41,709 bases of DNA from Bacteroidota bacterium (lineage in GTDB: Bacteria; Bacteroidota; Ignavibacteria; UBA10030; BY39): contig JASEGV010000021.1 in assembly GCA_030017895.1 (NCBI GenBank), positions 1-41,709 of the forward strand, written 5' to 3'. The notes below the pieces were generated by a model. That model saw nothing but the letters and a program-made list of their open reading frames with translations. It made no database searches and was not told where the DNA came from. Below are positions 1,452 through 38,191 of the stretch, piece by piece. How positions within the stretch are numbered: the first letter of the stretch is position 1; each line of letters begins with the position of its first letter. The translations under genes were made by a program, and so were the position numbers.

Positions 1452-2774
1452 TTGAAAGCCAGTAAAATAATCGTTTTGTTATTTTTTTTATTTACACTGC
1501 CTATTTTACCACAGCAAGACCGCATACGAGCCGAACTTCCTATGCTAACTGACGTAGATGATTTCGGACCTCATCTTACCAGATTTAAAAAAAAACCAGA
1601 CAAGGCGTTAAAGCTTCCTTTGATTGATACAGCAGGAGCAAGATTTTTTTCAGCTTTCTATACTTTTAAGTCTGACAATCCCGAGATCTCAGTTATGGTT
1701 ATCCCCAAAGACAGCGGAGAGGAGTTGTATATTGATATGAATCGTGACTACGATTTAACCAACGATAATTCTCCTTTTATTTTTCCATATAATCAAGTTA
1801 ATTTTACTTTTGATATTATTTCAAGAGACGATCCAAGTCAAAAGACAAAAATATTATTACAACGCAGACCCGATAATTTTGATAGTTTATCATACAGGTA
1901 TGTTGATAGTTCCGGTAACCTTAACCCACATTTTCTTAAATTTTACAGCAATTTTATTCAAGATAATGATTTCACAGGCAAGCACGGCACATTTTATTTT
2001 GATAATCCTCTCGGATTAAGACGCGGTGAAATCGCTCTCAGTAATAATAAATACCAAATCGGGATTTTTGATTACGACAATAATGGATTATTTAATGATG
2101 ATGACGACCTTTTATTAATCGATCGAAACAACAGTGGAAAATTAGAGATTGATGCAACAACGAATGTATTTAAATTGAACGACATTTTCACGGTAGGTCA
2201 AGAATCTTACAAGATTACGATGATTAATAAATACGGTCATTGGTTGGAAATCCGGAATACTGAAGAAGAACCTACTTTCTACTATTTAAAACACCTCGAT
2301 TCACTGAACAGAATGTACAGTGAGAGCAATATGCCCCTCGACAGTATTAGTATGTATAAAAACTCCGGAACCACTTTGATAGACGAAGATGTCTGGAACA
2401 TTAGTGCAACCACAATAGACGGCAATGCAATAAGTTTTAATAAATATAAAGGCAAGTATGTACTATTAAACTTTTGGGGTGAATGGTGTAAGCCGTGTAT
2501 TGGCGAAATCCCTGAACTTGTAAAAGCAAATTCAGACTATGGTACAAACAAGTTACAAATAATAAGTTTTTTGTATACGTCTAAATTGGAAGATGCAAGG
2601 ACTGTAATCAAAGAAAAGGGCATTACATGGCCGCAGATCTCTTTGTCGGAACCAATTCAAAATAAGTTCAAGATAAAATCGTATCCTACTAATATTCTAA
2701 TATTTCCCGACGGCAAAACATGCGTACAATATGGAATTGTAAACAGGTTTTTCTTTAATAGGTATATTGAGTAA
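1452..2774 (+). CDS. Exported TlpA/ResA-like thioredoxin-domain protein
   Basis: About 440 residues. TTG 1452 is preferred as the start because GAGAGGA (1439-1445) sits six bases before it; the TTG at 1437 would precede that ribosome-binding site. The N-terminus (KASKIIVLLFFLFTLPILPQQ) is a signal peptide. The middle 300 residues are beta-rich with Asp-rich turns ('DYDNNGLFNDDDD') and match no family I recognise. The C-terminus is a thioredoxin fold of the TlpA/ResA/AlkC-TSA type: 'VLLNFWGEWCKPCIGEIPEL' with the redox CxxC at Cys346-Cys349, then the cis-Pro region 'IKSYPTNILIFPDGK'. It probably exchanges disulfides in the periplasm. The gene lies 36 bp before the hydrolase in the same direction. 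Confidence 0.8.
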   Translation: MKASKIIVLLFFLFTLPILPQQDRIRAELPMLTDVDDFGPHLTRFKKKPDKALKLPLIDTAGARFFSAFYTFKSDNPEISVMVIPKDSGEELYIDMNRDYDLTNDNSPFIFPYNQVNFTFDIISRDDPSQKTKILLQRRPDNFDSLSYRYVDSSGNLNPHFLKFYSNFIQDNDFTGKHGTFYFDNPLGLRRGEIALSNNKYQIGIFDYDNNGLFNDDDDLLLIDRNNSGKLEIDATTNVFKLNDIFTVGQESYKITMINKYGHWLEIRNTEEEPTFYYLKHLDSLNRMYSESNMPLDSISMYKNSGTTLIDEDVWNISATTIDGNAISFNKYKGKYVLLNFWGEWCKPCIGEIPELVKANSDYGTNKLQIISFLYTSKLEDARTVIKEKGITWPQISLSEPIQNKFKIKSYPTNILIFPDGKTCVQYGIVNRFFFNRYIE

Positions 2775-2810
2775 TATAATTTATCACATGTAAATTAAGG
2801 AATATTAAAC

Positions 2811-3905
2811 ATGAATAATTCAAAGCTGTTCACCTTTTTAATTAATGTGTTATTAATCTATCTTCTTTTTTCCCTTCCCCTCCTTGCACAGGATAGAAAA
2901 GAAGAAAGCACAACCACCGATAAGCTAATCAATAAAAAATTTGAGTCGCTAGAACACCGTCTCGATGAATTGGAAAAAGCTGTCGATGATATACTTTGGT
3001 ACAACAAAGTAGGCGACGTTGCCAACATCGACAAAGTGTTTATCGTAGGTCCACCGCCTGCTTATGTTCCTAATCCAACGGCAATGGGCGCGAACAACCC
3101 TGTTAAATTTTGGACTTACATTTTCATCCCGCAGAAAATCGACCGGAGTAAAAAATATCCGCTTCTCGTTTTACCTCACGGCGGTGTGCACGCAAACTTC
3201 ACAACTTACTACACTCACATAATCCGTGAATTAATGGCGCAGGGTTATATTGTGGTTGCGCCTGAATACCGCGGAAGCACCGGCTACGGTAAAAGTTTCT
3301 ACGAAAAAATCGATTACGGCGGATTAGAAATCGAAGACAACAATGCAAGCAAAAATTACATGATCGAGAATTACGATTTCGTAGATAAAAATCGCATAGG
3401 TGTAATTGGTTGGAGCCATGGCGGATTAATTGCACTAATGGACATTTTCCAACATCCCGACGACTATCAGGTAGCATTCGCCGGTGTGCCGGTAAGCGAC
3501 CTTGTTGCACGTATGGGTTATTACGACGATGAATACCGGAAAGAATTTTCGGCAAAATATCATATCGGTAAAACTGCTCAGGATAATGTTGAAGAATACC
3601 GAAAACGTTCGCCCGTCAATCATGCTGATAAACTCAAAACACCGCTTCTTATACACACCAACACAAACGACGACGACGTTAATGTGTTGGAAGTCGAACA
3701 CTTGATTCGTGCTTTGAAAGCTGCGGGTAAAAAATTCGATTACGAAATTTTCAAGGATGCACCCGGCGGACACAGTTTCGACCGTATTGATACAAAGTTA
3801 GCAAAGGAAACGCGATTGAAGATTTACAAATTCCTCGCCGAGTATTTGAAGCCGCCTTTTCCTTTTAAGTCGGTTGCTGATTTGGAGAGAGCGGGATATA
3901 GATAG
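2811..3905 (+). CDS. Secreted S9-type (prolyl-oligopeptidase-like) alpha/beta hydrolase
   Basis: 364 residues with an N-terminal signal peptide (FLINVLLIYLLFSLPLLAQ) and a short charged coiled segment before the catalytic domain. The domain shows 'YPLLVLPHGGVHANF' (oxyanion region), 'APEYRGSTGYG', the nucleophile elbow GWSHGG with Ser202, an acid region NTNDDDV at Asp287-289, and GGHSF with the likely catalytic His321. This order is typical of peptidase S9/dipeptidyl-peptidase-like or acyl-esterase enzymes lacking the beta-propeller, so peptidase or esterase activity cannot be told apart. AAGGAA precedes the ATG. The C-terminal residues KSVADLERAGYR recur as a fragment just before thyX, on the far side of the restriction-modification genes. 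Confidence 0.85.
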   Translation: MNNSKLFTFLINVLLIYLLFSLPLLAQDRKEESTTTDKLINKKFESLEHRLDELEKAVDDILWYNKVGDVANIDKVFIVGPPPAYVPNPTAMGANNPVKFWTYIFIPQKIDRSKKYPLLVLPHGGVHANFTTYYTHIIRELMAQGYIVVAPEYRGSTGYGKSFYEKIDYGGLEIEDNNASKNYMIENYDFVDKNRIGVIGWSHGGLIALMDIFQHPDDYQVAFAGVPVSDLVARMGYYDDEYRKEFSAKYHIGKTAQDNVEEYRKRSPVNHADKLKTPLLIHTNTNDDDVNVLEVEHLIRALKAAGKKFDYEIFKDAPGGHSFDRIDTKLAKETRLKIYKFLAEYLKPPFPFKSVADLERAGYR

Positions 3906-18181: not shown

Positions 18182-21100
18182 TTATCGAATCAATAACATT
18201 TTCTTGATTGAGGTATAATTATTTGCATTCAACGAGTTGGATGAACTCACCACAAGTTTATAAAAATAAACACCCGTAGGCAATCCGCCTGCGGCGGATT
18301 CAGCATTAAACTCGATAGATTTATTACCGGCAATCTGGAATTCATTTAATAATTTTGCTACTTCTCTTCCTATTAGATCATATATCTTCAAGGTTACATG
18401 GCAATTTTCGGGTAATTGGTATTTAATGATTGTTGTAGGATTAAATGGATTAGGATAGTTCTGAAAGAGTTGATACTGTATCGGCATTTGCTCAGATTCA
18501 CTTACCGATAATGGATTCTTTGTATACTTGATAACAACTGGGACAGCCCAATTATCATATTTTAAAAGATTACCTACTACGTAAAAAATATCTGTACCGT
18601 GCAAAGAAATAGCAATAGCCCCTTCGTTTGCATACCAAGGGCTATCGTGATGTACGACTGTTTTCAGATTACCATCCTTGTCATATTGTATCGTGAGAAT
18701 AATATCATAAGAATTAATACCCTTTGTTTTTCCTGTAATATACACATTTCCAAATCCATCCACAGTAATATCCGATGGATAATCGTCTGAGTTTGTTTCT
18801 CCATTGTATCTTACTACCCAAATCTGTTCTCCATTTGGATTTAATTTCAGTGTAAAAATATCTTGATTGTTATCGTAACTATAGCCGGTTACATAAATAT
18901 TAGAGGAGTCGTCAAGTGTAAGTGCTACCGGAACATCATTCCCATATCTACGGTAATCGTAACTATTTTCCCAAAGGACATTTCCCAATGCATCATATTT
19001 AAAAACTAAGCATATATCATTAATGCTCGTTCCAATTACATACACATTGCCCAAATCATCCGCTTTAATACCTTTAGCAAAATCATCTTTATCCAAAACA
19101 CTGCTATAGGTCTTAGTCCATTTGTGTGTTCCATTCGAATCGTATGCTATTGTTATAAAATCGTATGATGTTCCAGATCTTTTTGTATTCCCAACGACAT
19201 AAACATAACCACGCTTATCAACATCTAAACTGACAGCATAATCATCCGAATTGTTTCCTGGTGCACTATACCGAGCTACCCATACCTGATTACCATTAGC
19301 ATCGTATTTGATAGTAGCAATATCAGACCAACCGACTTCATCAGAACTAGATCCAGTTACATATACATGCCCATTATCATCAACTTTAATTGCAGATGTA
19401 ATATCAGATAGTATATTAGGTCCAAAATATTTTCTTATCCATTTTATATCACCTGAACTATCGTACTTTATCGTCGTATAACATAAATACCAAGAACCCC
19501 AAAAAGTTTCATGACCAGTTACATAAACATTTCCCTGTTTATCCACAGTAATAGCTACTGGTTCATCCATTAAATTTGCTGCTCCATTATAACGTTTTTC
19601 CCAGCAAATATTACCGGTTGGGCTATATTTTATGGTTAGAAAATCGTATTTCGTGTTTAAACCTTCACTTTTCGACAAAACGTAAAGATACCCTTTATTA
19701 TCGATAGTTGCATCAACAGCAGCGGTTTTAGAAATTGTACCACCATTATATCCCGAAGTCCATTTTTTCATTCCGTCCGCGTCGATCTTCATCGTTATAT
19801 AATCTTCGGCTGTTGTATTCTTCCAGTTATAACCTGTTACATATAAATTCCCCTTCGAATCAATATTCATTGCCGAAGTATAACCGTACACATACGGAGG
19901 CTCAAGAAAATTCAATGTATATATCTGGTTACCGAGTGTGTCATATTTAATTAGGGCTTTATTACTTAGGGCGTAAATGTATCCTAAGCTATCCAACTCG
20001 ATTCCTCGTGCGTCATCACCCGCTTCATAATTATACCTCGCAACCCAGCGAATATTTCCACCGCGATCGAGTTTTATTGTCGCAACATCATGTCCATTTA
20101 CATTTCCACTACTTCTTCCTGTAACATATACGTTTTCTTCATTATCAACAATTATATCTTTACCATAATCTTCAGTTGAATAACCAATAACATCGTTATC
20201 ATATCTTCTCATCCATATTTGATTACCTGAACTATCGTATTTTACGATAAGATAATCATACCACCATGGATTTCCAGAAATAGTACCAATTGTGTAAACA
20301 TTCCCTTTATCATCAACCACAATACCGTCTGACCAATTACAAGGATTACCACCGCTATTGTACTGAACCGCCCAAAGTTGGGTTCCATTCTTATCATATT
20401 TCACGGTATAATGATCCCACCATAAACCGCGATACCCAGAGCTACTTCCTGTTACATATACATTTCCAGAATTATCAATATCAATCGCTTTCGCAGCATT
20501 ATATGAATTCCATGTGCCAGGTCCACTAAAAGTATTATACCAGAGTTTAAATCCATCTGTATCGTACTTAATTGTTTTATAATCGGCGTCGGCATTTCCG
20601 TCAGAACTCGAACCTGTTATATATACATTACCAATCTTATCCACCTTCATTGCGGTCGGGCTCATAGCCTCTTTGGCAATCCAAAGCTGTTCGCCCCCTG
20701 AATTATATTTTACAGTAACCGTATGAATATAAGAGCTCCGTCCCGTTACATATATATTACCCGAACCATCGATATCGAGAGCTACCGCGAAATCATCCGA
20801 ATGGTTTTGACCGTCGAATATTACAGCCCATAGTCCGTTTCCTGTGGAATCATATTTAATTGTAACGATATCATAACCGTTTGGTAAATTCTCACTCGAC
20901 CCCGTTACATATACATTTCCTAAACGATCGGTCTTTACGGCTATAGCCTTATCAATTTTTGGGATTTGCCCCGAAAGATAATATTTAGCCCATTCCATTT
21001 TTAGGGAGTCATTATTAACACTTGAGATAATCCGGGAATCATTTTCTGTCGAACGAGTACCTGATGATTTGTGTAGTTCATTGGGTAATTGAATATTGTA

Positions 21101-21241
21101 ATAATTCCACCAAAACGGATTGTATTCACTTTTATTACGTTCAATGTAATCTGGTAAGTATTGTGAAAGAAGAAATTCTTTCGGGCTGATTAATAATAGG
21201 AAAATGATAATAAATTTCTGAAATTTCATTATATTTTTCAT
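18182..21241 (-). CDS. Secreted SBBP-repeat beta-propeller protein with T9SS sorting domain
   Basis: 1019 residues. Signal peptide 'FIIIFLLLISPKEFLLSQ'. From about residue 85 to 920 I count 16 repeats of roughly 50 residues with the core 'D..GNVYVTGSS......TIKYD..G...W...Y', the SBBP (seven-bladed beta-propeller) pattern; two copies are shortened. The last 85 or so residues form a type-A sorting domain: 'YQLFQNYPNPFNPTTIIKYQ', 'LKIYDLIGREVAKL', 'TGVYFYKL' and final 'KKMLLIR'. The protein is therefore probably exported through T9SS and cell-surface-bound or released. Binding target unknown. The sorting domain contains a six-residue insertion encoded by a perfect palindrome. Confidence 0.9.
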   Translation of the reverse strand: MKNIMKFQKFIIIFLLLISPKEFLLSQYLPDYIERNKSEYNPFWWNYYNIQLPNELHKSSGTRSTENDSRIISSVNNDSLKMEWAKYYLSGQIPKIDKAIAVKTDRLGNVYVTGSSENLPNGYDIVTIKYDSTGNGLWAVIFDGQNHSDDFAVALDIDGSGNIYVTGRSSYIHTVTVKYNSGGEQLWIAKEAMSPTAMKVDKIGNVYITGSSSDGNADADYKTIKYDTDGFKLWYNTFSGPGTWNSYNAAKAIDIDNSGNVYVTGSSSGYRGLWWDHYTVKYDKNGTQLWAVQYNSGGNPCNWSDGIVVDDKGNVYTIGTISGNPWWYDYLIVKYDSSGNQIWMRRYDNDVIGYSTEDYGKDIIVDNEENVYVTGRSSGNVNGHDVATIKLDRGGNIRWVARYNYEAGDDARGIELDSLGYIYALSNKALIKYDTLGNQIYTLNFLEPPYVYGYTSAMNIDSKGNLYVTGYNWKNTTAEDYITMKIDADGMKKWTSGYNGGTISKTAAVDATIDNKGYLYVLSKSEGLNTKYDFLTIKYSPTGNICWEKRYNGAANLMDEPVAITVDKQGNVYVTGHETFWGSWYLCYTTIKYDSSGDIKWIRKYFGPNILSDITSAIKVDDNGHVYVTGSSSDEVGWSDIATIKYDANGNQVWVARYSAPGNNSDDYAVSLDVDKRGYVYVVGNTKRSGTSYDFITIAYDSNGTHKWTKTYSSVLDKDDFAKGIKADDLGNVYVIGTSINDICLVFKYDALGNVLWENSYDYRRYGNDVPVALTLDDSSNIYVTGYSYDNNQDIFTLKLNPNGEQIWVVRYNGETNSDDYPSDITVDGFGNVYITGKTKGINSYDIILTIQYDKDGNLKTVVHHDSPWYANEGAIAISLHGTDIFYVVGNLLKYDNWAVPVVIKYTKNPLSVSESEQMPIQYQLFQNYPNPFNPTTIIKYQLPENCHVTLKIYDLIGREVAKLLNEFQIAGNKSIEFNAESAAGGLPTGVYFYKLVVSSSNSLNANNYTSIKKMLLIR
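18282..18300. repeat. 19-bp palindrome inserted in frame in a sorting domain
   Basis: AATCCGCCTGCGGCGGATT is a perfect 8-bp inverted repeat around TGC. On the coding strand it gives the residues ESAAGG in 'FNAESAAGGLPTGVYFY'. The paralogous sorting domain of the next gene reads 'FDAINLTSGVYFY' with no such block. The extra DNA is a multiple of three, so the frame is kept. It looks like a small palindromic element that landed inside a gene. Confidence 0.55.
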
Positions 21242-21371: not shown

Positions 21372-23951
21372 TTATCGAATTAATACCATTTTCTTGACTG
21401 AGGTGTAACTACTTGCATTCAATGGATTCGATGAACTCACCACCAATTTATAAAAATAAACGCCACTTGTCAAATTTATTGCATCAAATTCTACAGATTT
21501 ATATCCTGCTTCTTGGAATCCATCAACCAACTTCGCAACCTCTTTGCCTAATACATCATATATTTTTAAGGTTACGTAGCCGTTTTCAGGTAAATCGTAT
21601 TTTATTACTGTTGTAGGGTTGAACGGGTTTGGGTAATTTTGATATAATGTAAAGTTTTCAGGTATATTTTCTTCAGTAAATGTTTTATAAAATTCACACG
21701 GTCTCGGCAGTGCTGCTTGCGCTTCTACAAAAAGAATATCGTTTTGTGAACTTCCAATATATAGATTACCATTGCTGGATAATAAAATTTTATCTTCTCC
21801 GCTGCCGGGTCTTGTTAACCAATATTTTGTGTTATTCTGCCACTTAATATTCCAATTTATATTTATAGGATATTGTGCATCCTTAATAACTATCGGCATT
21901 CTTTTTATTTTTTGATTCGGTAAGACAGTTTCGATAAATTTATTAGATTGAAACCGCACGTTAAACAATCCTTTCGGAGTAACAGGCGGCATTTCAAAAT
22001 CGCTGATTCCTAAATTTACTGCGCGACCAGCATTTCGCGTGTACATTGTTTGAGTATTGCCATTTGCATCTGTGATTGTAAAATTATCGAGTGTTGAAAG
22101 TGAGGCAACAGGATCGCAAGGGTTCGGCGGCTGCGGTGCCGATTGAGTGGTAAATACCCAAGTATTAGACCAGTTACTCGTAGCTATATCGGAGGAGGCA
22201 TTCACTCGCCAGCAATATTTTGTACTGTACGATAAGCTTACTTGTTTAAGTGTATCGGTTATTGAAGGATCATCAAAAATGAGATTTGTAAAACAGTTGT
22301 TAGTAGAAATTTGTAAACGATACGATACGGCATCGGTCGATTTTCTCCAGCGGAAGATTGGGTTTATCGATATTCCCGTTGCACTGCTATCCGGTTTAAC
22401 AAGTTTTGGAATTGGGGATGCACCTGGCGGATTAGCGGATGGTTGATCTGCACAGAATGCTGGTTGATTTAACGATGTAGTAGAATTTATGTTCAATTTC
22501 AATATTCCACTTTGATTAGCTTTCACCCAGTAACCAAGCCCAGGTATTATGGTATCAGCAACATGATATGCACCATTCCTGTAACCATAAAGATATGAAC
22601 TAATTATTCCAGGGGGATCAGAAGTCGCTTTTGATTTCAATAAATTTAACGAGATAGAACCTATCATATTCCAACCTGCAACCAAATTAATTTCATGATT
22701 TAAAATTGGAGGACCTTCATATTCGTAGGTATGACCTTGGTTAAACTTTACCCAATAACCTTTTCCATTTTCAAGTGTACTTTTCGGGACATATCCGCCG
22801 CTCTCATAAGTGTAAGCAGGAGTTATCGCATCCGGATACACGATGCTTTTGTCGTAATTACTAACTATGTTCGGCACACTTAACATATTCCAACCAATCG
22901 GAATTTTTGATTTTATTTTAAAATTACCGTTTACGGTTAATTGAGAGTTGGTACCAAAACTCCAAATAGAGTTTGCACTTATAAAAAGATTTCCACCTGA
23001 TGCGATGTTAATCACAGAGTTGTTACCAAGTGAAATCTCAGCTCCGTTGCCGATTATTAATGCGGACTTTCGTTGAGCGGTCAGTGTAATGTTATCTGCA
23101 ATTGTTAATTTTAAATCTTTTAGTTTAGAAGGTTCAGGGTAAAGATACGGATCAATTATTATTTCATTATTTGGTAACTCAGGATCCCCTGGACCTATTA
23201 TATTTGTATTTATATCTACAATAGCTGGAGAAAGAAGTGTATCGGATGTAACACCATCCAAAGGTAATATATTTGGGAAGAAAAAATCTCCGTTACGCTG
23301 ATTCTTCGGTATAAACTGTAGCTCATTCCAAACGCGATATACTTTGTTGTTTTCTATTTCAAATAGAGAAGTAATTTTCCCAGATCTAATATAAACCCGA
23401 GAGTTGATACTCTTTGAATTATCATAAGTTATTATTATATCACAACCAGGATCATCTGGGAAATTTGAATCCATAAAATCAATGTAAAAAATATATTCTT
23501 TTTCAATAGTCAATCCTTTATTTTTAATTTTAATTTCATATATCCCGTAACCTATCCAGTCAAAGAAGCCTGGTGCCCTCGGTCCACCTGCACCAATGTA
23601 ATCAATATATATTGTTTTGGGTATATCACCCTCACTCCAAATTATATCATGATCTACTCCAATAATACTTTGTGGTTCAGAAGAATTAGGGCAGCCAACC
23701 ATATCATCCTTTCTCTGGTATTCGTGACTGTATATTTTCTTCTGCGCTGGACAATATAATCCTTTCATTACATCTCCAGAATATATAGTCCCAACTTTTT
23801 TAATCGAAAAATAGATATTGCCAGATGAACCAAAATTTTCAACTTTAAAAATCATATCAGAAGGGATAAATGTTGAACTCTGTGAATATCCCAAATTATT
23901 GAAAAATATAATAAAAAATGAAATTAGAAAAATCATAAATTTTGTTTTCAT
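21372..23951 (-). CDS. Large secreted T9SS cargo protein with Fn3-like domain
   Basis: 859 residues. Signal peptide 'FMIFLISFFIIFFNNLGYSQ'; AGAGGAA stands eight bases before the ATG. The first 260 residues are unrecognised beta-rich sequence with several cysteines. Then a short repetitive beta-helix-like stretch ('NGAEISLGNNSVINIASGGN'), then two related units 'PIGWNMLSVPNI...GKGYWVKF' and 'VAGWNMIGSISL...GLGYWVKA'. At about 510-600 comes an Fn3-like domain ('PIFRWRKSTDAVSYRLQIST', 'YCWRVNASSDIATSNWS'). The end is a type-A sorting domain: 'LYQNYPNPFNPTTVIKYDLP', 'GVYFYKL', 'KKMVLIR'. Function unknown. The same sorting-domain ending as the SBBP protein points to recent duplication of the tail. 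Confidence 0.85.
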   Translation of the reverse strand: MKTKFMIFLISFFIIFFNNLGYSQSSTFIPSDMIFKVENFGSSGNIYFSIKKVGTIYSGDVMKGLYCPAQKKIYSHEYQRKDDMVGCPNSSEPQSIIGVDHDIIWSEGDIPKTIYIDYIGAGGPRAPGFFDWIGYGIYEIKIKNKGLTIEKEYIFYIDFMDSNFPDDPGCDIIITYDNSKSINSRVYIRSGKITSLFEIENNKVYRVWNELQFIPKNQRNGDFFFPNILPLDGVTSDTLLSPAIVDINTNIIGPGDPELPNNEIIIDPYLYPEPSKLKDLKLTIADNITLTAQRKSALIIGNGAEISLGNNSVINIASGGNLFISANSIWSFGTNSQLTVNGNFKIKSKIPIGWNMLSVPNIVSNYDKSIVYPDAITPAYTYESGGYVPKSTLENGKGYWVKFNQGHTYEYEGPPILNHEINLVAGWNMIGSISLNLLKSKATSDPPGIISSYLYGYRNGAYHVADTIIPGLGYWVKANQSGILKLNINSTTSLNQPAFCADQPSANPPGASPIPKLVKPDSSATGISINPIFRWRKSTDAVSYRLQISTNNCFTNLIFDDPSITDTLKQVSLSYSTKYCWRVNASSDIATSNWSNTWVFTTQSAPQPPNPCDPVASLSTLDNFTITDANGNTQTMYTRNAGRAVNLGISDFEMPPVTPKGLFNVRFQSNKFIETVLPNQKIKRMPIVIKDAQYPININWNIKWQNNTKYWLTRPGSGEDKILLSSNGNLYIGSSQNDILFVEAQAALPRPCEFYKTFTEENIPENFTLYQNYPNPFNPTTVIKYDLPENGYVTLKIYDVLGKEVAKLVDGFQEAGYKSVEFDAINLTSGVYFYKLVVSSSNPLNASSYTSVKKMVLIR

Positions 23952-24025: not shown

Positions 24026-25846
24026 CTATTTAATAGCCACAACAAACGGATAAAAACCACTATAGTAAACTGTACCGTTATCAGAAATAACAATTGAATA
24101 TACAATATTACTAAAATAATTGAAGGAAAAATCGATAATACCAAATTCATTAATACGTATCATTTCAAAACGATTCAACGAACTTCCATCAGTTCCGAAA
24201 TACATTCTTCCTTTATTATCAATTACAGGATATGATTCAACTGAAAATTCTAATTTTAATTCCCATAATAATTTTCCTTCCGTATTGTACAGGTAGATAT
24301 TATTTCCCATATATGATATAATATTTCCATTAGGTGTGATTGCAGGCGTTGCTCTTGGTAATTCTCCAAAACCCTTTCCTATCCATTTTAATTTGCCTTG
24401 ACTGGTAAGGCAATAAAGATTGGGTTGTTGAATTTTATAAAAATAAATATTTCCATTTCCATCAATTACTAAGTTTAAAAAGTTTACCCCAGCACTGTCA
24501 GTATATCTCCACTTTTCTTTTCCATCAGGATATAGTGCGATTAATGCTTTATCATACCAACTGTTATAATATATTATTCCATCTTTATCTACGGTTGGAG
24601 AGCACAAATTATTTGCTCCATCTTTAGTCCAAATAATTTCACCTCCCAAACTATTTAATGCAATTAATTTTCCCCAGTATGGATTTTCATATGTGCAAAA
24701 GTAAATTATATTATTTTTTGATATTGCTGGTGATGAATACGTCGATGAAATATTTGTCTTCCATAAATTTTCTCCCAGCGGTGTATAAGCTGCCGTTAAA
24801 TCTCCTTGGAGTGTATTTGAGCTAATAATTATTGTTCCATCATCTTTTATTGATATAAAAACACCAACTCTTGCGTTATATCCTTCAACAACCCATAACA
24901 AATCTCCATTCTCGGAGAACGCATATAAAAGGGTATCGGAAAACCTACAGCCGATATAAACATTACCCTCAGGGCCTACACTCATCATACCAACTCTATG
25001 AGGAAAATCGCGCCTCCACAAGATTTTAGCACTTGTATCTTCTAAACCTTTTGGATATGGGTAAACCACATTATGTCCTCTTCCGCTTGCATCGTATCTC
25101 ACCATTGGCCATTGTGGAACTTTTAGAATTGCTTCATAAACCTGAAAATTTAGGACAGTATCACCTAGGACAAAAACATTTTCAATTTTCATCGGTTCAA
25201 TCTTTGGTTTTGTGCTGTCCGTGTTTTCTATAGAAACAGTATACACATTGCTTGAGTCTTGGTAAAGGTCTTCAACATAATAATTATTGGTTTTTCTAAA
25301 AACCTCAGCAGTTGTTCCGCTTGTTATTATATTATCAATGAACAACATCTTCCTTACTTGTCGCTTATCTCTAATACTCACCGAGTAAAAATAAATGCCA
25401 TTTGCCACTTTTCTTCCTAAACCGTCTTTGCCATCCCACTGTACTTGTCCAATATTCTGTCCTGTGAACTCTTGTTGAAATGTTTTTACTCTCTGTCCTA
25501 ATATATTATAAATACTAATTAGAACCGGAGATTGTTGTTTAATTTGATATGTAATAGTAGTTTGTTCTGAAAATGGGTTCGGATAGTTTTGGTAGAGTTT
25601 AAAATCTGTAATTTCTTTGTCATCGTTCTCAACTCCCGTAATCGTTATAATGTAATTCCCCGAAGAATCGGACAGCGAAATAAATTGGCGGTTGGTATCG
25701 ACAGCATTTACAAAACATATCTTGGCTCGGTTAACTGGTATGCTGTTAGTAGTGGTTATCTTTCCGCTTATAATGGTCCCAGAATAGGAAAACCCCAGTT
25801 TTACCAATAAAAAGGTAGTTAAAATAATGATACAAAATTTTCTCAT
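24026..25846 (-). CDS. Exported PQQ-like beta-propeller protein with internal FlgD/T9SS-like domain
   Basis: 606 residues from ATG 25846; the frame stays open 96 bp further upstream, but those residues are strongly basic ('TRRQMKLRIYYFRRRK') and precede the real signal peptide 'RKFCIIILTTFLLVKLGFSY'. A carboxypeptidase-regulatory-like strand unit (28-72) comes first. Then, at about 82-171, there is a sequence resembling a T9SS sorting domain: 'LYQNYPNPFSEQTTITYQ', 'ISIYNILGQRVKTF', 'NGIYFYSV', 'VRKMLFIDN'. The rest, about 430 residues, is a beta-propeller with PQQ/pyrrolo-quinoline-like repeats ('GNVYIGCRFSDTLLYAFSEN', 'GTIIISSNTLQGDLTAAYTP'). A sorting signal is normally terminal, so this one may serve only as an Ig-like structural domain. 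Confidence 0.8.
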   Translation of the reverse strand: MRKFCIIILTTFLLVKLGFSYSGTIISGKITTTNSIPVNRAKICFVNAVDTNRQFISLSDSSGNYIITITGVENDDKEITDFKLYQNYPNPFSEQTTITYQIKQQSPVLISIYNILGQRVKTFQQEFTGQNIGQVQWDGKDGLGRKVANGIYFYSVSIRDKRQVRKMLFIDNIITSGTTAEVFRKTNNYYVEDLYQDSSNVYTVSIENTDSTKPKIEPMKIENVFVLGDTVLNFQVYEAILKVPQWPMVRYDASGRGHNVVYPYPKGLEDTSAKILWRRDFPHRVGMMSVGPEGNVYIGCRFSDTLLYAFSENGDLLWVVEGYNARVGVFISIKDDGTIIISSNTLQGDLTAAYTPLGENLWKTNISSTYSSPAISKNNIIYFCTYENPYWGKLIALNSLGGEIIWTKDGANNLCSPTVDKDGIIYYNSWYDKALIALYPDGKEKWRYTDSAGVNFLNLVIDGNGNIYFYKIQQPNLYCLTSQGKLKWIGKGFGELPRATPAITPNGNIISYMGNNIYLYNTEGKLLWELKLEFSVESYPVIDNKGRMYFGTDGSSLNRFEMIRINEFGIIDFSFNYFSNIVYSIVISDNGTVYYSGFYPFVVAIK

Positions 25847-37009: not shown

Positions 37010-38191
<1,182 letters not shown>

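Follow-up and report, generated by a model that had tools for sequence, protein, structure and literature searches.

A T9SS-type module within an N-terminal cassette shared by presumably exported proteins of one bacterial class

In this phylum the T9SS module usually stands at the very end of an exported protein, as a secretion tag; the signal is regarded as terminal, and the prediction of secretomes depends on that position. In the parts of the published descriptions that were covered the signals are all terminal, and no account of an internal T9SS type A module was found in a search covering little of the subscription literature. According to the sections of PMC10202324 drawn on here, the lysines of motif E are required for efficient secretion (section 10) and the CTD of PorU is uncleaved in P. 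gingivalis (section 16). Section 2.2 of PMC11285876 describes PorU and PorZ as unimpaired by a C-terminal His-tag extension, and function as abolished when the last six residues of PorU are replaced or two are removed from RgpB. The structures in the excerpts used of PMC10994853 imply an exit of substrates from the pore together with PorV and with the CTD ahead; parts of PMC9143113 were also drawn on.

The protein described here (P0001) is encoded on the minus strand of the window, the whole 41,709-nucleotide stretch of DNA that was analysed, by an open reading frame whose ATG lies at position 25846. Its segments are given in Table 1.

Table 1. Segments of the gene and its 606 amino acid product, with window coordinates
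Feature	Residues	Position	Strand	Basis
Whole gene, presumably exported 606-aa protein with internal T9SS-type module		24026..25846	minus	Open reading frame and translation
Signal peptide, without lipobox	about 1-20	25787..25846	minus	By-eye reading of the sequence
Carboxypeptidase-regulatory-like domain, first half	22-69	25640..25783	minus	PF13620, 14.0 bits with the whole protein, 19.5 alone (both below the cut-off of 32.3)
T9SS type A / FlgD-Ig-like module	81-169	25340..25606	minus	TIGR04183, PF18962, PF13860; sandwich model
Motif B core YPNPF, followed by S, not N	88-92	25571..25585	minus	Sequence
Variable linker behind the module	170-200	25247..25339	minus	Low identity among homologues
Presumed carboxypeptidase-regulatory-like second half, VYTVSIENTDST...LNFQV	201-236	25139..25246	minus	Conserved in 47 cassettes
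C-terminal part with PQQ/BamB-like beta-propeller	237-606	24029..25138	minus	PF13360

The module exceeds the cut-offs of TIGR04183 (42.7 bits versus 23), Pfam Por_Secre_tail (PF18962; 31.4 versus 27) and FlgD_ig (PF13860; 28.3 versus 27), which bears out both the internal T9SS type A module and its kinship with FlgD-type Ig domains as proposed in an earlier note on this DNA. Like the type A sorting domain it possesses the motif B core, the basic pair of motif E (RKM, close to the module end) and an Ig-like sandwich. In the AlphaFold modelling, for which a shallow alignment of 12 rows was used, it forms a seven-stranded sandwich, the first strand two residues long and the other six at least three (block pLDDT 72–95 from about residue 94, about 53 before). 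The module differs from the sorting domain in that it is not C-terminal, occupying residues 81–169 of 606, in having PNPFS for PNPFN, and in lacking the terminal basic residue. Unlike FlgD, the protein is not a hook-cap protein, and it contains a signal peptide and other domains. The earlier note had placed about 430 residues of propeller behind the module; 437 residues do follow, of which the first 67 or so are not propeller. The propeller scores 43.7 bits with PF13360 (cut-off 27.6; best stretch residues 353–453) and 36.2 with TIGR03300, the BamB outer membrane assembly factor (cut-off 285.2), and belongs to the general PQQ_2 propeller family only, not to the BamB family. The model of the C-terminal part has a pLDDT of mostly 70–90 from residue 271 on, and no second copy of the propeller part was found in the same genome.

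That genome (3.2 Mb in 176 contigs) encodes a T9SS, with SprA (1099.9 bits in one frame), PorU (961.3 bits) and nine PorV-family genes, all above their cut-offs; of 119 genomes sampled from the class, 112 have a PorU match. Using the N-terminal 239 residues as query, 137 matches were obtained in the genome, mostly to the module only. The 88 stretches around these matches and the window were scanned with a module profile, and 141 module-bearing frames with one match each were found: 138 terminal, two cut at the ends of loci and one internal. The terminal frames, a few of them fragments, all stop within 23 residues of the module match, so that among the resolved frames the internal position occurs once in 139. 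Ten loci of this genome that matched the protein in a contig search are all without the cassette; in eight (L016–L023) the match reaches the end of the reading frame or stops within 8 residues of it, and in two distant matches (L024–L025) some 41 residues follow. At C10:15905-22450 (L140) the genes for PorU and PorV and a frame of 1041 codons adjoin each other; the product of the last resembles an M6-type peptidase by eye and has a divergent terminal module (WPNPVYDG).

When the protein was compared with 80 relatives, 25 genomes gave a match, and among these were matches over approximately residues 1–245 in frames of 551–683 codons. An alignment of 17 cassettes (A1) then served as query against overlapping samples of 98 genomes from the order, 391 from the class and 395 from the phylum. 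The search for the same order of domains, which the earlier note had suggested, yielded 47 distinct full cassettes of about 215 residues each, in 41 genomes of one class. Full-length matches run from model positions 1–3 to 216–217, the weakest at 219.6 bits; below them lie a cassette cut by a contig end (L038/L072, 156.8 bits) and then combinations of the first half with a terminal module (at most 147.3 bits). The 47 do not include L038, the 5' end of which is cut, or L048 and L230, which are nested but have a cargo-type module. Of the 395 phylum genomes seven match, and all seven belong to the same class, the share of the sample outside that class not being given. The earlier note had hoped for insight into how the sorting domain arose; the cassette, seen in these samples in one class only, gives no support to this or to an ancestral form of the sorting domain and points instead to a later internalisation.

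The cassette begins with a hydrophobic N-terminus and a first half that shows the carboxypeptidase-regulatory-like pattern TDxxGxY; the module comes next, and after a variable linker the second half. A glutamine stands at the presumed mature end in 40 of the 47, and a crude lipobox pattern in two N-termini (L030, L067), in both upstream of the presumed Gln start. In all 46 cases with a readable C-terminal part, the protein under study included, at least 143 residues follow the cassette (L089 is cut by a contig end). Since 47 distinct homologous cassettes keep the same order, the internal module is not due to chance, and since the same arrangement is joined to differing working parts in dozens of proteins, it is a real reusable unit. 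The protein is a member of a family, found in one class, with a shared N-terminal cassette and many different C-terminal parts.

Two short proteins share the hydrophobic N-terminus and the first half and then end in a truly terminal, cargo-type module (L043, genome G032, 1189-1683, 165 codons; L073/L114, G054, 211 codons); these are homologues with a stop after the module, as the earlier note had proposed to look for. Two other loci (L048/L120 in G005, L230/L246 in G054) are nested in the same way, but their module is of the cargo type (PNPANP and PNPFNP, respectively). In the tree these group with terminal modules, which may reflect replacement or a second origin.

Compared by BLAST, the 46 readable C-terminal parts form ten groups with no similarity between them at 1e-4: 30 are GH30-like, seven are PD40/TolB-like propellers, two are short parts of no assigned kind and seven are singletons. 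The singletons include two sortilin/BNR-like propellers and the PQQ propeller of the present protein and, by eye, a beta-helix, two further propellers and a glycosidase-like part. No terminal module was detected in any of the 46 (best E 0.16). A search of 382 genomes of the class for GH30-like homologues gave matches in 36. Eleven relatives are without the cassette: four end in a PNPFN module (L238–L241), and seven have a lipobox and no terminal module (L229, L234–L237, L242, L245). All ten complete ones thus possess either a terminal module or a lipobox, L245 running off its contig. A terminal module is found in none of the 30 with the cassette versus 4 of the 11 without (Fisher p 0.003, relatedness ignored), and three genomes (G146, G511, G548) hold two of the GH30-like forms. 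Enzymes of one family are thus directed outward by two known means at least, and the mutually exclusive forms make the cassette look like a third. The 30 include a cassette gene with a broken frame (L090). The comparison leaves out L244 (broken frame), L243 (cassette cut by a contig end), L230 (GH30-like, but nested with a module of cargo type), the second part of L116, and short GH30 fragments of G046, G058, G072 and G538. L116 itself (G676, 1508-3482, minus strand) is a GH30-like cassette gene split across two reading frames.

Internal and terminal modules differ in motif B. In all 47 internal modules the residue after PNPF is S, A, L or V, so that PNPFN occurs in none, compared with 127 of the 138 terminal modules of the genome (in four the match lacks the PNPF region) and all 56 of another terminal-module set drawn partly from the same genome. 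PNPFN is likewise absent from 31 PorU CTDs (that of this genome and the 30 best-scoring loci of the 112 genomes with a match), 17 of which have PNPF followed by another residue, the rest varying at F too. Its absence may merely mark separate lineages. The basic pair of motif E, searched as [KR][KR][MLFIA], is present in 45 of the 47 internal modules and in 42 of 56 terminal ones. The module trees rest on about 90 columns and are weakly resolved: in the tree without PorU all 47 internal modules and L038 form one group (support 75), while in a free search with PorU they are non-monophyletic. A tree that holds them together has a better likelihood (p-AU 0.9, L035 left out). Cargo modules group together with support of 96–97 and PorU CTDs with 100. 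By these sequence trees the internal modules appear to form their own group and can be held as one clade.

The PorU family model gives the module 51.1 bits, a score exceeded in the genome only by PorU itself and a paralogue of it. The best structural match of the module model is a PorU CTD (Z 11.0, rmsd 2.4, 94 aligned), with which CD109 (10.4), a peptidase (10.3) and C3 (10.0) are tied to within 1; the PorZ CTD has Z 8.9. Foldseek returned PorU, FlgD and PorZ entries together (PorU E 1.9e-4, FlgD 2.9e-4), while the cassette profile matched FlgD chains in the PDB (5e-7) more strongly than PorU (7e-5). The uncleaved CTDs of PorU and PorZ resemble the module in fold, and those of PorU also in motif B, but are C-terminal and have no propeller or enzyme behind them.

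The module lies between two conserved segments that resemble, in sequence, the halves of one carboxypeptidase-regulatory-like sandwich (PF13620), also seen as the N-terminal domain of SusC/TonB receptors. This domain resembles the first half, and the joined halves somewhat better; here it would be interrupted by a module of some 90 residues. Joining the halves without the module raised the PF13620 score of P0001 from 14.0 bits with the whole protein to 21.5, still below the cut-off of 32.3, and gave L032 35.2, above it. For the first half alone, a hand-made scramble and the real join, the scores were 27.5, 27.3 and 35.2 in L032, 19.5, 19.7 and 21.5 in P0001, and 20.8, 27.8 and 26.8 in L033, so that one of three scrambles equalled the real join. 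An E-value of 3e-5 was passed by 16 of 24 joined members versus 9 of 24 with the second half shuffled (one script-made shuffle each). Against PDB sequences, the alignment of the joined profile with SusC/TonB-type domains extended further than that of the shuffled profile, although some matches scored higher with the shuffle (5t3r, 15.4 versus 13.8; 9hfj, 15.9 versus 14.6). AlphaFold modelled both halves with low confidence (block pLDDT 28–63), and structure therefore gives the nesting no proof; that the module is nested within one such domain is likely, if unproven.

We read the family, at close to even odds (roughly 0.46), as carrying an uncleaved T9SS-type targeting or docking cassette that acts from the N-terminus, its location being presumed. 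The module, probably nested and probably uncleaved, would be a still functional T9SS-type docking domain comparable to the CTDs of PorU and PorZ. Once exported by Sec, it would pass to the SprA/PorV translocon or to a PorV-family barrel and would keep the protein on the outer surface, the C-terminal domain turned outwards, the cassette thereby replacing the usual terminal signal or lipoprotein anchor. The specific proposal of a second, N-terminal T9SS route, in which SprA/PorV-type barrels recognise a nested, uncleaved, PorU-CTD-like module that displays the domain behind it, is possible though doubtful. We favour the docking cassette because 47 copies in 41 genomes come with no terminal module in 46 readable C-terminal parts, because the module exceeds its flanks in conservation and keeps the motif-E pair, and because the internal modules and the PorU CTDs (the genome's own and the best-scoring 30) lack PNPFN alike. 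Further support comes from the PorU CTD as top fold match together with the PorU model score, from the terminal module or lipobox of GH30-like relatives without a cassette, from G005 and G054, which nest a cargo-type module in the same place (L048, L230), and from the presence of SprA, PorU and nine PorV-family genes in the genome. The published tolerance of PorU and PorZ for a His-tag at the C-terminus and the CTD-first exit with PorV also speak for it. The reading is weakened by the fact that the C-terminal extensions known to be tolerated are short tags, not some 400 residues, by the cassette profile matching FlgD above T9SS CTDs in the PDB, by the near tie of Z 11.0 with unrelated sandwich domains, and by the last strand of the internal modules, which runs on into differing linker residues, whereas exchange or loss of the last residues abolishes function in PorU and RgpB. 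The published signals covered here, all of them terminal, weigh against it as well. A search for PorV-type genes beside cassette genes, made with a crude home-made profile containing some doubtful rows and over short flanks, found none, a negative that carries little information.

The main rival, a serious contender at somewhat less than even odds, is that the module is an Ig-like (FlgD-type) structural domain only, unrelated to T9SS transport, and that module and split domain make up a rigid spacer or binding unit at the N-terminus of a periplasmic protein exported by Sec. The non-terminal position speaks for this, as do the FlgD chains that are the best PDB sequence matches of the cassette profile; moreover the CTD motifs largely specify the fold (PMC10994853, in the parts used), so that they may be conserved for reasons other than transport. 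In 9 of 10 internal members scanned, FlgD_ig scores above Por_Secre_tail, but since 7 of 10 terminal modules of the genome lean the same way, this lean is neutral and the score comparison failed as a discriminator. A purely structural role accounts less well for the motif-E pair kept in 45 of 47, for the terminal module or lipobox in 10 of 10 complete GH30-like relatives without the cassette, and for PorU, which ranks first by Z and no worse than FlgD in Foldseek. Among 29 GH30-like cassette members (the broken L090 and L101, which is not GH30-like, left out), mean pairwise identity is 0.56 in the module, 0.44 in each flanking half, 0.16 in the linker and 0.54 in the catalytic part. The module is thus more conserved than its flanks and about equal to the catalytic part; not standing clearly above the latter, it slightly lowers the docking reading and raises the structural one.

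The same figures bear on the earlier note's suggestion that a gene fusion trapped an old signal, which would persist as a dead but folded remnant. With 138 terminal cargo signals in one genome fusions must happen, and two genomes have a cargo-type module nested in the same place; nevertheless a dead signal is improbable, the module being more conserved than its flanks, retaining motif E, persisting in 47 copies in front of ten groups of C-terminal parts and being holdable as a clade of its own, and in its simple form the suggestion does not stand. Still less probable is a processing site, where the cassette would be cut off after export as a pro-domain to free the C-terminal enzyme: the variable, often glycine-rich linker behind the module would suit it, but PorU cuts before a CTD (PMC10202324, in the sections drawn on), which here would free only the first half. 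An assembly or annotation artefact joining two genes, the case that the earlier note held would refute it, might be suspected in a genome of 176 contigs but is effectively ruled out by uninterrupted frames in 47 distinct cassettes from 41 genomes, one of them a single-contig genome (G277).

If the docking reading applies, the cassette may be a second way of addressing proteins to the cell surface. At the level of sequence, a conserved and shuffled module near the N-terminus is in any case an exception to the position rule. Cargo modules with PNPFN, set against internal and PorU modules without it, offer a natural contrast for CTD cleavability, and the cassette would allow a test of whether the translocon accepts a signal that lies within a protein.

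The next two genes downstream in the window (21372-23951 and 18182-21241, both minus strand) encode T9SS proteins with ordinary terminal modules, the second of which bears SBBP propeller repeats. At 37010-38158, also on the minus strand, lies a gene for an AAA_14/DUF4143 ATPase.
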